Shown: positions 4,543 to 17,238 of the stretch, one piece after another
How positions within the stretch are numbered: the first letter of the stretch is position 1
How the letters are laid out: every line of letters starts with the position of its first letter
Virus record (IMG/VR): IMGVR_UViG_3300027708_001442
Location: 1 to 32,424 of that record
Length of the DNA stretch: 32,424 bases
Direction: 5' to 3' (one strand)
Origin: a virus
Position numbers and translations under genes: made by a program
The notes under the pieces: generated by a model
Databases searched by the model: none
Told to the model about the DNA's origin: nothing
The model's input: the letters and a program-made list of their open reading frames with translations, nothing else

Positions 4543-5850
4543 ATGGCCGTTAAAAAAGAATTAGATCCATTTATAGAAAATCAATGGAAAGAATGGCAAG
4601 ATACCAATCCACTTGATAAAATACCAGATATAGATACAGATAAACTTAAAGATATAGTTATTAAAGATTTATCTTTTGTATCTGTTATGAATGTAAAAGA
4701 ATATACACTATATCAAAAATGGTGTGAAATACATCAAAAATATCCTACTATAGAAACAAATAGTTTTTTTGATGACAGGCCAGCATTAGCAGATCCTGAA
4801 CAAGGTGCCATCATACAAGAAGTAAAAAATAACTTTTGGAATCCACAGGATCCAATGGAGTATTTAAATTTAGAACCAGAACTTATTTACACAGAGGTCA
4901 ATAACGAGGGTAAAGTTGGTTCAGTAACAGGTAAGAAATTACCAGCCATTTGGAATACATTAAGAACATTTCTTTCTACAATGAAAAACAATAGTAACAT
5001 TGGTAGAAATTTATACTTTATTATAAGAGATAAAAAAACAGAAAAGTATCTAGGCGTTACTTGTATGTCCTCAGACTTTTTAGATTTAACACCAAGAGAT
5101 GATTATATAGGTTGGGATAGAGAAACAAAAACACAAAGAATGATCAATCATACTTGTATTGGTAGTACGATTGTACCTATACAACCACTAGGTTATAACT
5201 TAGTTGGTGGTAAATTATTAGCACTATTATGTTTATCAGATACAGTTGAGAAAACGTGGGAGAAACAATATGGTGATAAACTTGTAGGTGTTACAACAAC
5301 ATCTTTATATGGTAAAACAAAAACAATACCATTATCACAATACGATAGATTAGATCATTGGAAGAAAATGGGTTGGACAGCAGGTTCAGTATCATTTGAA
5401 ACAGAAAGATCAACAAGAAAACTTATACAACAATGGTTAATGAAAAATCATACTAGAAAATACTTTGAATGGTACATTGCAACGAAGCCAAGTGGACAAC
5501 CACACAAAAGAGATCATAGAAATAGAAGTCATACTTTTACATATAGTCAATTAGGTATAGATAAGAAACTTATTAAATCAGAACATGCAAGAGGCATTTA
5601 CTTTAGTGAACTATTTAAAAATACAAAAGAATATTTAAGAGAAGAAATTAAAGAAGATAAGTTAGTAAGAGCCTTTGATAACTCAACAGAAGCTTTAACG
5701 CATATATGGAAAACAAAATATGCAAAGAAAAGAATAGAATCTTTAATAGCACAAGGTAGAGTATCAAAAGAAAGTCATTTCTATGATGACATTATTTACT
5801 TAAATTGGGAAGAAACCAAGAAAAAATACCTTTTTCAAGTAGGCCGATAA
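4543..5850 (+). CDS. DUF4338/DruA-like protein, paralogue 1
   Basis: 435 residues. The central part (about 165-275) resembles DUF4338, the family of the Druantia defence protein DruA: a strand segment YLGVTCMSSDF, then IGWD, then NHTCIGSTIVPIQPLGYN, GGKLLALLC, a WEKQYG step, TTSLYGK and SQYDRLDHWKKMGW. The family assignment is from recalled motif patterns and is not certain; biochemical activity of DUF4338 is unknown to me. A second protein in this window (20395-21498) shares the same core, so the two are paralogues. The N-terminal 160 residues (acidic, Trp/Asp-rich) and a basic C-terminal third (HKRDHRNRSHTF) are specific to this copy. The gene stands alone between two promoters. No Shine-Dalgarno; a leaderless transcript is predicted. 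Confidence 0.6.
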   Translation: MAVKKELDPFIENQWKEWQDTNPLDKIPDIDTDKLKDIVIKDLSFVSVMNVKEYTLYQKWCEIHQKYPTIETNSFFDDRPALADPEQGAIIQEVKNNFWNPQDPMEYLNLEPELIYTEVNNEGKVGSVTGKKLPAIWNTLRTFLSTMKNNSNIGRNLYFIIRDKKTEKYLGVTCMSSDFLDLTPRDDYIGWDRETKTQRMINHTCIGSTIVPIQPLGYNLVGGKLLALLCLSDTVEKTWEKQYGDKLVGVTTTSLYGKTKTIPLSQYDRLDHWKKMGWTAGSVSFETERSTRKLIQQWLMKNHTRKYFEWYIATKPSGQPHKRDHRNRSHTFTYSQLGIDKKLIKSEHARGIYFSELFKNTKEYLREEIKEDKLVRAFDNSTEALTHIWKTKYAKKRIESLIAQGRVSKESHFYDDIIYLNWEETKKKYLFQVGR

Positions 5851-8273: not shown

Positions 8274-9464
8274 ATGCTAAACAATAAACAACGTGAGTAC
8301 ATTAAATACGCTTATAGCCTATTTAATAAAGATGTGTTAACTAAAAAAGAGTTGATACAAGCAAACAAAAAATTTGGTTGTAAATACGCTCCACAATGGT
8401 TAATTAAAGATAAACAATACAAAGTTGATAAGGCGACTTTTAGATTACCTTTAGATGGTGATATTAAAAAAACTGTTGCCGTTGAATCAACTAATAATAC
8501 TGAGATTAAAAAAGAAGCCGCTTATATTGTATCTTCTTTAACAGGCGACATTGTGCCTAAAAAAGATCCAGTGTTTGTTCCATTTGGTAACTACCCAGAT
8601 ATTAAATCTATTATTAAATCTGGTAAATTTTATCCTATATTCATTACTGGTTTATCTGGTAATGGTAAAACAATGTCTGTAATGCAGGCATGTGCTGAGG
8701 CTAAAAAAGAATGTATCAGAGTAAACGTTACAATTGAAACCGACGAGGACGATTTACTTGGTGGTTACAGATTAAAAGACGGCCAAACTGTATGGCAAAA
8801 CGGTCCAGTTATTGAAGCCATGGAGAGAGGCGCTCTTCTTTTATTAGATGAGATTGATTTAGCTTCTAATAAAATTATGTGTTTACAACCTATCTTAGAA
8901 GGATCAGGAGTGTTTGTTAAAAAAATTAACAAATTTGTAAAACCAAAAGACGGTTTTAACGTAGTGGCAACTGCCAATACTAAAGGTCAAGGTTCCGAAG
9001 ATGGTAAGTTTATCGGTACTAATATCCTTAACGAAGCTTTCTTAGAGAGATTTCCGGTTACATTTGAACAAAGATATCCAAATGCTAAGACTGAGGAAAA
9101 AATTCTAAATAATACTTTAGAAGCTACTGGTAAAAAAGATACTAACTATGTTAACAAACTTGTTACATGGGCGGATGTTATCAGAAAAACTTACTTTGAT
9201 GGTGGTGTAGATGAGATTATATCTACCAGAAGATTAGTACATATTGTACAAGCTTACTCTATCTTTAGTAATAAACTTAAAGCAATTGAATTGTGTACAA
9301 ATAGATTTGATGAAGATACTAAAACTTCATTTGTAGATTTATACACTAAAGTTGATGCTGGCGCTACTGCTGATCAGATTATAGAATCTCAAAGACAGTC
9401 AGAAGTTGCGGCTCAATCTCAAACGGATTCCAATGATGGTGAGGAGGAAGCAGTAGCTATTTAA
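8274..9464 (+). CDS. cobS: MoxR/CobS-type AAA+ ATPase
   Basis: 396 residues. Walker A is GLSGNGKT (about 126-133), then TDEDDLLGG, then Walker B LLLLDEIDL (about 189-196), and sensor 1 region VVATANTKGQG. The ILNEAFLERF segment supplies the arginine-finger region typical of the MoxR/CbbQ/CobS clade. The first 80 residues are family-specific, and the end is an acidic Gln/Glu-rich tail. This is the gene usually called cobS in cyanophages. MoxR-type ATPases form rings that act with a vWA partner on a client protein; the vWA protein is the gene just upstream, with its own promoter but shared upstream repeats. The symbol follows phage custom and does not mean cobalt insertion is shown. The client is unknown. 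Confidence 0.85.
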   Translation: MLNNKQREYIKYAYSLFNKDVLTKKELIQANKKFGCKYAPQWLIKDKQYKVDKATFRLPLDGDIKKTVAVESTNNTEIKKEAAYIVSSLTGDIVPKKDPVFVPFGNYPDIKSIIKSGKFYPIFITGLSGNGKTMSVMQACAEAKKECIRVNVTIETDEDDLLGGYRLKDGQTVWQNGPVIEAMERGALLLLDEIDLASNKIMCLQPILEGSGVFVKKINKFVKPKDGFNVVATANTKGQGSEDGKFIGTNILNEAFLERFPVTFEQRYPNAKTEEKILNNTLEATGKKDTNYVNKLVTWADVIRKTYFDGGVDEIISTRRLVHIVQAYSIFSNKLKAIELCTNRFDEDTKTSFVDLYTKVDAGATADQIIESQRQSEVAAQSQTDSNDGEEEAVAI

Positions 9465-9500
9465 ATAGTTACTTTTCTAAAATCCATTAATAATAGTCCT

Positions 9501-9522
9501 GAGTGGCCAATAATGGCCACTC
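9501..9522 (+). other. Perfect 9-bp stem-loop upstream of rpsU
   Basis: GAGTGGCCA (9501-9509), loop ATAA, TGGCCACTC (9514-9522). No T tract follows, so it is not a typical terminator. It ends ten bases before the rpsU Shine-Dalgarno, a position suited to RNA processing, mRNA stabilisation or translational control. Its AGTGGCCA arm recurs in the hairpin at 12059-12089. Confidence 0.7.
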
Positions 9523-9531
9523 TAAACACCC

Positions 9532-9540
9532 TAAGGAGGT
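9532..9540 (+). promoter_or_regulatory. Perfect nine-base Shine-Dalgarno of rpsU
   Basis: TAAGGAGGT at 9532-9540 is fully complementary to the usual 16S anti-Shine-Dalgarno and sits eight bases before a TTG start. I noticed no stronger ribosome site in the window, and it decides the non-ATG start at 9549. Confidence 0.85.
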
Positions 9541-9548
9541 ATATTTAA

Positions 9549-9758
9549 TTGGGACTCAAAGTAGAAGTTAAGAATAACAATGTCGAAAAGGCAATGCGTA
9601 TTCTTAAAAAGAAAATGCTTAAAGAGGGCGTTCTAAGACTGTACAAAATGAAACAGACTTATGAAAAACCATCTGAAAAAAGAGTTAGGAAAGCAAAAGA
9701 AATGCGAGCTAACTATTTAAAGAAGCAAAAAGAACTAAGAAATCTAAGAGGTTACTAG
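9549..9758 (+). CDS. rpsU: Ribosomal protein bS21
   Basis: 69 residues, very basic, full length for bS21. It matches the family along its length: [18 protein letters not shown], then KEGVLRLYK, then the hallmark [14 protein letters not shown] (39-51). bS21 sits on the 30S platform beside bS18 and bS6 near the 3' end of 16S rRNA and assists initiation. Phage-encoded bS21 is known from pelagimyophages and other marine viruses, and is thought to enter host ribosomes. The start is TTG 9549, set by the perfect Shine-Dalgarno. I see no promoter between the AAA+ gene and this one, so it is probably read through from 8216. A hairpin (9501-9522) precedes it and a structured region follows. Confidence 0.93.
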
Positions 9759-9760
9759 TT

Positions 9761-9789
9761 TTAACATTATATTTGAAACTAAATATATT
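9761..9789 (+). promoter_or_regulatory. Possible promoter of structured RNA region
   Basis: TTAACA (9761-9766), 17-base spacer, TATATT (9784-9789). The predicted start near 9796 lies at the first stem of the structured stretch 9793-9897. Confidence 0.4.
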
Positions 9790-9792
9790 ATA

Positions 9793-9897
9793 GATTAGGC
9801 AACTCATAAGACCTGATCGGTGTTAAAAAGATTGATCCTACTTAAAGGATCAGCAAATCGGTGTTTGGTAGTTTACTCCGTGATAAACAAACTACCA
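9793..9897 (+). ncRNA. Candidate structured RNA with three stem-loops
   Basis: This gene-free stretch after rpsU can form three hairpins in a row: 9793-9799 with 9812-9818 (7 bp, one G-T), 9833-9839 with 9846-9852 (7 bp, loop ACTTAA), and 9866-9874 with 9889-9897 (9 bp, 14-base loop). The linkers carry a direct repeat, ATCGGTGTT at 9816-9824 and 9857-9865. A possible promoter lies just upstream and the hsp20 promoter begins two bases after the last stem. It has no open frame and matches no RNA family I know. It could be a small RNA, a riboregulator or the 3' part of the rpsU message. Confidence 0.45.
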
Positions 9898-9898
9898 C

Positions 9899-9931
9899 TT
9901 GACAAAGCATAGTCTAATGACTATATAAATA
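9899..9931 (+). promoter_or_regulatory. Overlapping sigma70-type and late promoter of hsp20
   Basis: TTGACA (9899-9904), 17-base spacer, TATATA (9922-9927), overlapped by the T4-type late box TATAAATA (9924-9931). Host polymerase and the gp55 form could both start here, with a leader of about 50-60 bases. Confidence 0.65.
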
Positions 9932-9990
9932 ATATTGAAAGTGCCAATAGTGGGCTTTTAATTTTAACTTGCTTAACAAAAGGAGAAAAA

Positions 9991-10434
9991 ATGACAAACA
10001 GACAATTAAGCATATTCAATCAACTAAGACCCTTATCTATAGGTTTCAATAATGTATTTGACCACTTTGAGTCAATGCTAAATGATGACTTTGGATTAAG
10101 AGTTCCAACAGTAAATTATCCACCATACAATATTGTAGAAACATCTAAGAACAAATACGATATCGAAGTGGCTCTTGCTGGTTACGGTAAAAAAGATATA
10201 GACGTAACCTTTGAAGATGGACAGTTAACTATCAAATCTAAAAAATCTGATAAAGAGGACGTTAAAGATAATACACTGTACAAAGGTATCGCTAAAAGAT
10301 ACTTTGAAAGATCATTTACAATTGCTGATGATGTAGAAATCAAAGGCGCTGAATTAAAAGATGGTCTATTGAAGGTATCGTTAGAGAAGATTATACCTGA
10401 AACAAAAAAACCAAGAACTATTGACATTCGATAG
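9991..10434 (+). CDS. hsp20: Small heat shock protein Hsp20 (IbpA-like)
   Basis: 147 residues, normal for bacterial and cyanophage Hsp20. The alpha-crystallin domain spans roughly 42-145: YPPYNIVETSKNKYDIEVAL, then GYGKKDIDVTFEDGQLTIK, then the conserved AELKDGLLKVSLEK segment. The N-terminal arm has the IbpA-like pattern FNQLRPLSIGFNNVFDHFE. It is an ATP-independent holdase that keeps unfolded proteins soluble; in T4-likes it is thought to help virion protein folding. The ribosome site AGGAG is five bases before the ATG. It is a single-gene unit with an overlapping dual promoter upstream and a terminator downstream. Confidence 0.93.
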   Translation: MTNRQLSIFNQLRPLSIGFNNVFDHFESMLNDDFGLRVPTVNYPPYNIVETSKNKYDIEVALAGYGKKDIDVTFEDGQLTIKSKKSDKEDVKDNTLYKGIAKRYFERSFTIADDVEIKGAELKDGLLKVSLEKIIPETKKPRTIDIR

Positions 10435-14834: not shown

Positions 14835-14909
14835 GCGGGCATAGTTCAGTGGTAGAATAATAGTTTACCAAACTATAGGTCGTGGGTTCGAATCCCACTG
14901 CCCGCTCCA
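14835..14909 (+). tRNA. tRNA-Gly (anticodon ACC)
   Basis: A complete cloverleaf: acceptor GCGGGCA/TGCCCGC (14835-14841 with 14899-14905), D arm GTTC/GAAT with loop AGTGGTA, anticodon stem ATAGT/ACTAT (14860-14864 with 14872-14876) and loop TTACCAA. The variable loop is AGGTC and the T arm GTGGG/CCCAC has loop TTCGAAT. Discriminator T14906 and CCA 14907-14909 are encoded. The anticodon at 14867-14869 is ACC, glycine GGU. A34 is rare in bacterial tRNA-Gly, where GCC normally reads GGU and GGC. The discriminator T and GCGGG acceptor support glycine identity. Confidence 0.95.
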
Positions 14910-15750: not shown

Positions 15751-17238
15751 ATGCAAGTATCTAAGTTTAGAGACTTTATAAAAGAAGAAAGACAACAGGA
15801 TGAAAAAGATCCTATTACTGTTGTTATTATTAGTAAATCTTCTCCTAAAGTAAGACGACAAAAAACAGGTAATAAAAAGACCAAAAAAGAAATTACCGTA
15901 AGTTTTGTACAGAAATCTTGTGCTAAAAGAAAAATACCGTGTTACGTAATCAATACTAAATTCTCAATCATCACAGATAAAGACGAAGAAAAAAATACAT
16001 TAACAATTTATAATTATGACGGTGAAGATGGTGAACACACATTCATTGGTAAGAATACAGTAGTTATCACAAGAGCAGGTGCTATAGAGGACGAAGCAGG
16101 TCTTTCTTTGATATCAGCATTTCAAAATTCTGGTGCGTTTATGTTAAACACCAGATCAGCAATGTTAACATGCGATAACAAACTAACTTCAGCATTGTTA
16201 TTTGAAAAGTTTAATATACCAACTCCAAAAACTGCCTTCATATCAAACGAAAAGAATTTAGATAACGCATTAAAACTAGTAGGTAATAAATTTCCAGTAA
16301 TTGTAAAAACATTAACAGGCACACAAGGTATTGGTGTAGTTAAAGTAGATAGTTACGATTCATTAGTATCAGTAGTACAAGCATTGTTTAAACATGATGC
16401 TGAATTGTTATTACAAGAATACATGCCAACAGATTCAGATGTAAGAACATTCGTAGTAGATAATAAAATATTTGCATGTACTAGACGTGTTAAAAAATCT
16501 GGCGAATTTAGATCAAACGTTCATAGAGGGGCTATAGCAGAACCATATAAACTTTCAGATGAAGAAATAGAAATTGTTTTAAGAACAGCAAGAGCATCAA
16601 AAGCATATCTTGTAGGTATAGATCATATAAAATATAAAGGTAAAATTTACGTATTAGAAGCAAACGGTTCTCCAGGAACTGGTGCAGATTATGAAGGATA
16701 TCATTACGAAGATTATATTGATACACCAGATACTACAGGCCCAATTAAAGGTAGTCAATTGGTAGATAACGTTATAGAATATATTTCTGATAGAAAACAT
16801 TGGGATAGACAATCAATTGTAGAAGTAGGTTATTTAGAAACAATAGAATTATCTACAGTAGGAAAAGTAAGAGCAAAATTAGATACAGGTAATGGTGCAG
16901 AAACATGTGCCTTACATGCAGAAGAAGTGGAAGTTGTTGATGGTAAAGTTGCATGGAAATATAATGGTAAAAAGCATACAAGCAAGTTAGAAGGTTACCA
17001 TAAAATTTTTAGAGCCAATACAAATGATGGTGAAGGAGAAAAAAGACCAGTTGTTAAATTAGATTTAACATTTAATGGATTTACATATAAAGATGTATTG
17101 TTTGGTCTTGATGAACGTAAAAGATCAGCGTCAGACGTATTATTAAACAGAGACATCATTAGAAAAATGAATGCTTCGGTAAATCCAAATAGAGAATTTG
17201 TATTAAGTAGAAGAATAAAACCTATTGACAAAAAGTAA
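15751..17238 (+). CDS. RimK-like ATP-grasp ligase fused to RimB-like retropepsin-fold protease domain
   Basis: 495 residues, much longer than RimK (about 300). Residues 1-120 resemble a pre-ATP-grasp domain. ATP-grasp spans about 130-330: CDNKLTSALLFEKFNIPTPKT, FPVIVKTLTGTQGIGVV, LLQEYMPTDSDVRTFVV and YVLEANGSPG. From about 355 a second domain matches the RimB/ATP-dependent zinc protease family: KLDTGNGAETCALHA with the aspartic-protease-like D378-T-G, then RPVVKLDLTF and a LNRDIIRKMNASVNPNREFVL end. Family members extend or trim glutamate tails, best known on ribosomal protein bS6. A ligase and a hydrolase in one chain suggests self-limiting tail modification. The N-terminus MQVSKFRDFIKEE also resembles a capsid-targeting peptide. 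It directly follows regA. Confidence 0.85.
   Translation: MQVSKFRDFIKEERQQDEKDPITVVIISKSSPKVRRQKTGNKKTKKEITVSFVQKSCAKRKIPCYVINTKFSIITDKDEEKNTLTIYNYDGEDGEHTFIGKNTVVITRAGAIEDEAGLSLISAFQNSGAFMLNTRSAMLTCDNKLTSALLFEKFNIPTPKTAFISNEKNLDNALKLVGNKFPVIVKTLTGTQGIGVVKVDSYDSLVSVVQALFKHDAELLLQEYMPTDSDVRTFVVDNKIFACTRRVKKSGEFRSNVHRGAIAEPYKLSDEEIEIVLRTARASKAYLVGIDHIKYKGKIYVLEANGSPGTGADYEGYHYEDYIDTPDTTGPIKGSQLVDNVIEYISDRKHWDRQSIVEVGYLETIELSTVGKVRAKLDTGNGAETCALHAEEVEVVDGKVAWKYNGKKHTSKLEGYHKIFRANTNDGEGEKRPVVKLDLTFNGFTYKDVLFGLDERKRSASDVLLNRDIIRKMNASVNPNREFVLSRRIKPIDKK

Follow-up and report, generated by a model that had tools for sequence, protein, structure and literature searches.

The window, a stretch of 32,424 nucleotides from an IMG/VR virus record, carries a gene for ribosomal protein bS21 (rpsU) between a cobS-like gene and a gene for an Hsp20 small heat-shock protein, with a hairpin ahead of it and a conserved structured RNA behind it (Table 1). 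The bS21 product scored 59.8 bits with the Ribosomal_S21 profile (PF01165), whose cut-off is 27, over positions 1-51 of 55, and was 45-61% identical to the bS21 proteins of HTVC008M and Mosig. The isolate with the closest DNA polymerase was Pelagibacter phage Mosig EXVC030M, at 77% identity to the window protein, with every other isolate at 51% or less, and the order peptide deformylase - DUF4338/DruA-like - CobT - CobS - bS21 - Hsp20 - gp45 - gp44 - RegA - RimK/glutathione synthetase-like was common to Mosig and largely to HTVC008M. With its core genes nearest to those of pelagimyophages and this common gene order, the window is, as judged by sequence comparison, a T4-like pelagimyophage (Kyanoviridae infecting SAR11), and its relatives make a SAR11-type alphaproteobacterium the likely host.

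Table 1. Features of the bS21 locus, in window coordinates.
Feature	Position	Strand	Basis or detail
cobS-like AAA ATPase gene, upstream neighbour of bS21	8274..9464	+	PF07728; syntenic with Mosig and HTVC008M
cobS 3'-end element, AGTCCT then hairpin GAGTGGCCA-ATAA-TGGCCACTC	9495..9522	+	covariation; stays behind cobS stop
Shine-Dalgarno TAAGGAGGT, pairing with all nine 3'-terminal bases of 16S rRNA (ACCUCCUUA)	9532..9540	+	
bS21 (rpsU) gene, 69 aa, TTG start, TAG stop	9549..9758	+	PF01165; tblastn to pelagiphage bS21
Conserved structured RNA downstream of bS21 (P1, P2, P3, H-type pseudoknot)	9759..9897	+	covariance model, covariation
TAAATATA, late-promoter-like box position in P1-P2 junction	9780..9787	+	predicted +1 at 9793
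P2 hairpin, near-invariant loop (GGCAAYUCRUAAGWCC in most relatives)	9793..9818	+	
H-type pseudoknot	9859..9897	+	S1 CGG 9859-9861 / CCG 9878-9880; S2 TGGTAGTTT 9866-9874 / AAACTACCA 9889-9897
TATAAATA, putative T4-type late promoter before hsp20	9924..9931	+	
Hsp20 small heat-shock protein gene	9991..10434	+	PF00011

Several other elements of the neighbourhood were recorded. The protein of a core neighbour (4543-5850; DUF4338 in the Mosig annotation) matched Druantia DruA (PF14236, 78 bits), and the gene adjoining RegA (15751-17238) encodes a fusion of a RimK-like ATP-grasp protein with a zinc-protease-like domain (PF05618). As ribosomal protein bS6 is a known target of modification by RimK enzymes, the latter may be another translation-directed gene. 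The sole tRNA or tmRNA found in the window by covariance models and ARAGORN was a tRNA-Gly (14835-14909) with the anticodon ACC, an unmodified A34 being unusual in a tRNA anticodon; in HTVC008M a tRNA whose anticodon stem is similar lies directly upstream of bS21 (L073:3913-3983). The gap between cobS and bS21 is an insertion hot spot in related loci (L002, L003, L005, L006, L012, L021-L030, L086), and an HNH query matched just upstream of bS21 in L086, L077, L080 and L138. Such inserts often extend right up to the bS21 Shine-Dalgarno, and in L003 and L030 the insert opens with a bS21-like Shine-Dalgarno, TTG and first codons.

The earlier note had described the gene as a phage copy of bS21 with a perfect nine-base Shine-Dalgarno, a TTG start and the best ribosome site seen, and this description held: the profile match, the Mosig-like DNA polymerase and the conserved gene order identify it as phage bS21, every base of the Shine-Dalgarno is complementary to the 16S tail, and the duplex with that tail, at -13.4 kcal/mol, was the best among 37 window genes (gp45 was second, at -11.6 kcal/mol). 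The spacing from TAAGGAGGT to the TTG is 8 nt. The motif occurs as a single copy in the window, against a chance expectation of about 0.14 copies per window on this strand (first-order Markov shuffle) and of far fewer at the correct spacing before a gene. An in-frame TAA directly precedes the TTG, so that no earlier bS21 start is possible, and the first ATG that follows in frame, at codon 16, already falls within the conserved domain.

Among 30 close IMG/VR relatives TAAGGAGGT was almost invariant, even where the adjacent upstream DNA had been replaced (L002, L005, L006, L012, L021 and others), and the bS21 Shine-Dalgarno reached -11 kcal/mol or lower in 71 of the 87 relatives' loci. In a tally of 51 distinct initiation regions, median energies were -13.0 kcal/mol for bS21, -12.1 for hsp20, -9.3 for gp45 and -5.3 for cobS; the shares at or below -11 kcal/mol in the same tally (51 distinct bS21 regions) were 73% for bS21, 58% for hsp20, 9% for cobS and 0% for gp45. 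When the 186 genes of Mosig were ranked by Shine-Dalgarno, bS21 came first and hsp20, an ATG gene, second. The start codon of bS21 was non-AUG in 64 of the 87 loci, and the tallied neighbour-gene starts were ATG almost throughout. This combination across 87 relatives, the strongest Shine-Dalgarnos of the neighbourhood on bS21 together with mostly non-AUG starts, is new. The bS21 genes of HTVC008M (which starts with ATG), L047, L078/L107, L099, L113 and L143 were without a strong Shine-Dalgarno, and on a tree built from bS21, Hsp20 and gp45 there were at least 8 changes in Shine-Dalgarno strength (gains or losses) and at least 11 in start codon. Compensation between Shine-Dalgarno and start codon was considered and rejected: strong Shine-Dalgarno and non-AUG start were associated in raw counts (Fisher p 0.0016), but not significantly after tree correction (8 independent pairs). 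In another bS21-bearing phage group (L035-L045, L071), bS21 has ATG, no Shine-Dalgarno and, in the records searched, no downstream RNA.

The reading that we favour, with a probability of about 0.68, is that of an ordinary pelagimyophage bS21 gene between cobS and hsp20, whose extended Shine-Dalgarno gives strong, Shine-Dalgarno-dependent translation and whose product is most likely found in the host 30S subunit. The extended Shine-Dalgarno would compensate for the weak UUG start of a short ribosomal-protein mRNA, and phage bS21 would most likely enter host 30S subunits beside the SD/anti-SD helix. This is supported by the PF01165 match, the synteny with Mosig and HTVC008M, the top-ranking Shine-Dalgarno in both the window and Mosig, and general Shine-Dalgarno use: initiation regions of Mosig (n=136) had a median of -4.8 kcal/mol, compared with -1.0 and -0.7 for control stretches (p 4e-15), and those of the window (n=33) were likewise enriched (p 2e-4). 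Such genome-wide use indicates that the host anti-SD is evidently available to these phages and not sequestered. We infer high expression, replacement of host bS21, and a Shine-Dalgarno that works normally rather than as a sensor of bS21 depletion. The bS21 of HTVC008M was incorporated into E. coli 70S ribosomes, and E. coli ribosomes carrying it showed about 5% of wild-type translation in vitro (PMC6375957); with activity that low, plain replacement of host bS21 is not established.

For output alone, ATG with a strong Shine-Dalgarno, as in hsp20, would be simplest, yet the prevalence of non-AUG starts at bS21 hints at tuning or regulation. It is conceivable, if unlikely, that through its extended Shine-Dalgarno and UUG this mRNA would respond to SD/anti-SD pairing more strongly than any other of the phage, with phage bS21 tuning its own synthesis via that pairing. 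The excess of non-AUG starts over the neighbour genes and their co-occurrence with strong Shine-Dalgarnos would fit, but the association disappears on the tree, some relatives combine ATG with a strong Shine-Dalgarno and others ATG with none, and the proposal is drawn purely from sequence. The earlier note had instead proposed a self-adjusting switch as in Flavobacterium, in which ribosomes lacking bS21 expose the anti-SD and favour phage rpsU until bS21 is supplied. Autoregulation of this kind has been demonstrated for F. johnsoniae rpsU, where essentially only rpsU has a Shine-Dalgarno and bS21, bS18 and bS6 sequester the anti-SD (McNutt et al. 2023, PMC9976891), and it would be served by an extended Shine-Dalgarno kept in most relatives through replaced upstream DNA and by a weak UUG start that makes the site Shine-Dalgarno-dependent. 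Against it stand the genome-wide Shine-Dalgarno use by the phages, which speaks against sequestration, and the closest relatives, which are SAR11 phages and not Bacteroidota phages. Homologous phage rpsU genes lacking the long Shine-Dalgarno, named in the earlier note as evidence that would count against the switch, do exist in HTVC008M and the other loci listed above, although 71 of 87 keep a strong one. Nor does phage bS21 clearly have an aromatic residue where the stacking Tyr54 of Flavobacterium lies: residues 9-59 of the F. johnsoniae bS21 chain (7jil) align to profile positions 9-58, which would place Tyr54 near R53/A54 of the window protein, and the phage aromatic is Y56. What stood of that interpretation was thus a phage bS21 with an exceptional Shine-Dalgarno; the Bacteroidota-type logic did not carry over, and we consider the switch unlikely here.

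Autogenous control by the leader hairpin was a further candidate, in which an upstream UCCU would mask the Shine-Dalgarno and so mimic the SD/anti-SD helix that is bound by bS21 in OLE RNA (PMC12054373). The hairpin (9501-9522) is a perfect one of 9 bp that covaries in relatives, and folding of hairpin-bearing leaders predicted the Shine-Dalgarno to be mostly paired (0.05-0.52 unpaired), with UCCU as its partner. Attractive as this was by folding, it was refuted by the placement of the element, since AGTCC and the hairpin remain directly behind the cobS stop even in loci with genes inserted before bS21; the hairpin is therefore a cobS 3' element and not a bS21 leader, and masking of this kind can hardly be credited. 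In some pelagimyophages the AGTCCT and hairpin behind cobS are followed by a T-run, as in a terminator.

The downstream RNA is a more novel discovery than the bS21 Shine-Dalgarno. That this structured RNA is real and missing from Rfam we hold very probable. The covariance model, built with the window sequence included, scored the window RNA at 165 bits, the region 9756-9990 folds better than its shuffles (z -3.4), and both-side changes were seen in 14 of 32 predicted pairs across 21 sequences. P1 is formed by UUUUAACAUU paired with GGUGUUAAAA. When the arms of P2 are defined by position only, 93.8% of cells pair, versus 72.9% after shuffling (maximum 82.7%), and P3 is variable among relatives. 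In the pseudoknot S2 covaries, and S1, which lies outside the covariance model, gave 28 distinct helices in 29 sequences with a mean length above that of all 5000 shuffles, the rows having been partly re-anchored by hand; the S1 of the window consists only of CGG/CCG and adjoins a mismatch. A search of the window and related loci with Rfam 15 gave no match to the 9759-9897 RNA, tRNA/tmRNA covariance models and ARAGORN gave none at these positions, and manA (RF01745), at E<=1, matched neither the window nor any of eight loci with the RNA. The RNA families found near the loci were only tRNAs, chance-level matches and one glutamine riboswitch, and no description of the downstream RNA was found in the literature searched. 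The riboswitch aptamer (RF01739) lies between hsp20 and gp45 of a pelagimyophage contig (L083:2499-2547).

The RNA was present in more than 120 pelagimyophage contigs (for example at L072:6205-6352 and L073:4525-4638), with model R1 matching in Mosig and HTVC008M, in all 51 further contigs of the first pattern scan and in 71 of 76 of the second; no match came from Aegir, Kolga, the Salicola phage or a further eight IMG/VR records that carry bS21. In nearly all loci it lies 0-112 nt downstream of bS21, and in the HTVC008M-like clade, where an ORF intervenes, the distance is about 430-500 nt. In L265 the RNA follows a cobS match after 83 bases and precedes hsp20, which leaves no space for bS21. 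In L285 and L295 it stands before gp45; bS21 was not detected in either, and the single hsp20 match is on the opposite strand, 5.2 kb upstream. These three loci show the RNA to be independent of bS21, and a strictly bS21-bound 3' UTR was rejected on their account. An hsp20 5' leader was also rejected, as R1 had no match near five cyanophage-type hsp20 genes and the RNA of L285 and L295 adjoins gp45; a relative of manA was set aside on the same cyanophage result together with the failed manA search.

The P1-P2 junction of relatives holds a box that reads ATAAATA, with ATATATA as its form in the freshwater group and in some marine relatives. Five bases separate the box from a predicted +1, which coincides with the first nucleotide of P2 or lies at most a few bases from it. 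TATAAATA is the T4 late-promoter box; in Mosig the strand with most genes carries 27 copies of it and the other strand 3. In the window the box reads TAAATATA, so that promoter activity there is uncertain. Taken from its sequence features, the RNA looks like a free-standing, late-expressed pelagimyophage ncRNA, in which P1 would be formed only in read-through transcripts. That an RNA so composed (late-type promoter, hairpin at +1, variable hairpin and H-type pseudoknot) might act in trans on the host ribosome or translation late in infection, often together with phage bS21, is a speculation to which we give little weight.

SAR11 bacteria and the phages that infect them rank among the most abundant on Earth. 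The bS21 data make it testable whether an extended Shine-Dalgarno with a UUG start is regulatory or only strong, and the role of the conserved pseudoknotted RNA beside bS21 can now be tested as well; as this RNA is present in the cultured phages Mosig and HTVC008M, it can be searched for directly in infected cultures.

Compared with known systems, rpsU of Flavobacterium johnsoniae has an extended Shine-Dalgarno as in the window, but nearly all other F. johnsoniae genes are without one, in contrast to the general use seen here. The bS21 reported from Bacteroidetes phages of lakes (Chen et al. 2022, PMC9723584) is phage-encoded too, but belongs to other phages, hosts and gene neighbourhoods. The manA RNA motif (Rfam RF01745) of T4-like cyanophages, found in 5' UTRs including that of ibpA (PMC2864571), is likewise structured and, in marine phages of the T4-like kind, lies close to an hsp20/ibpA gene, but differs in that its covariance model matched neither the window RNA nor eight related loci. 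For the freshwater pelagimyophages PMP-D ('fonsimyophages', with Ca. Fonsibacter as proposed host), a divergent S21, a peptide deformylase and a polyamine gene have been described (Zaragoza-Solas et al. 2020, PMC7029224); S21, peptide deformylase and an ORF resembling SpeD all occur in the window, which by this published description, rather than by genome comparison, would fit a phage of the freshwater kind. Phage bS21 in pelagimyophages is thus already published, and as the window matches that description its bS21 is a known kind of gene. The HTVC008M locus is of the same family and place and has the downstream RNA, but its bS21 has ATG and no strong Shine-Dalgarno, unlike the window, whereas the Mosig locus, of the same family and in the same place (cobS-bS21-hsp20-gp45), has the strong Shine-Dalgarno, the TTG start and the downstream RNA as in the window.
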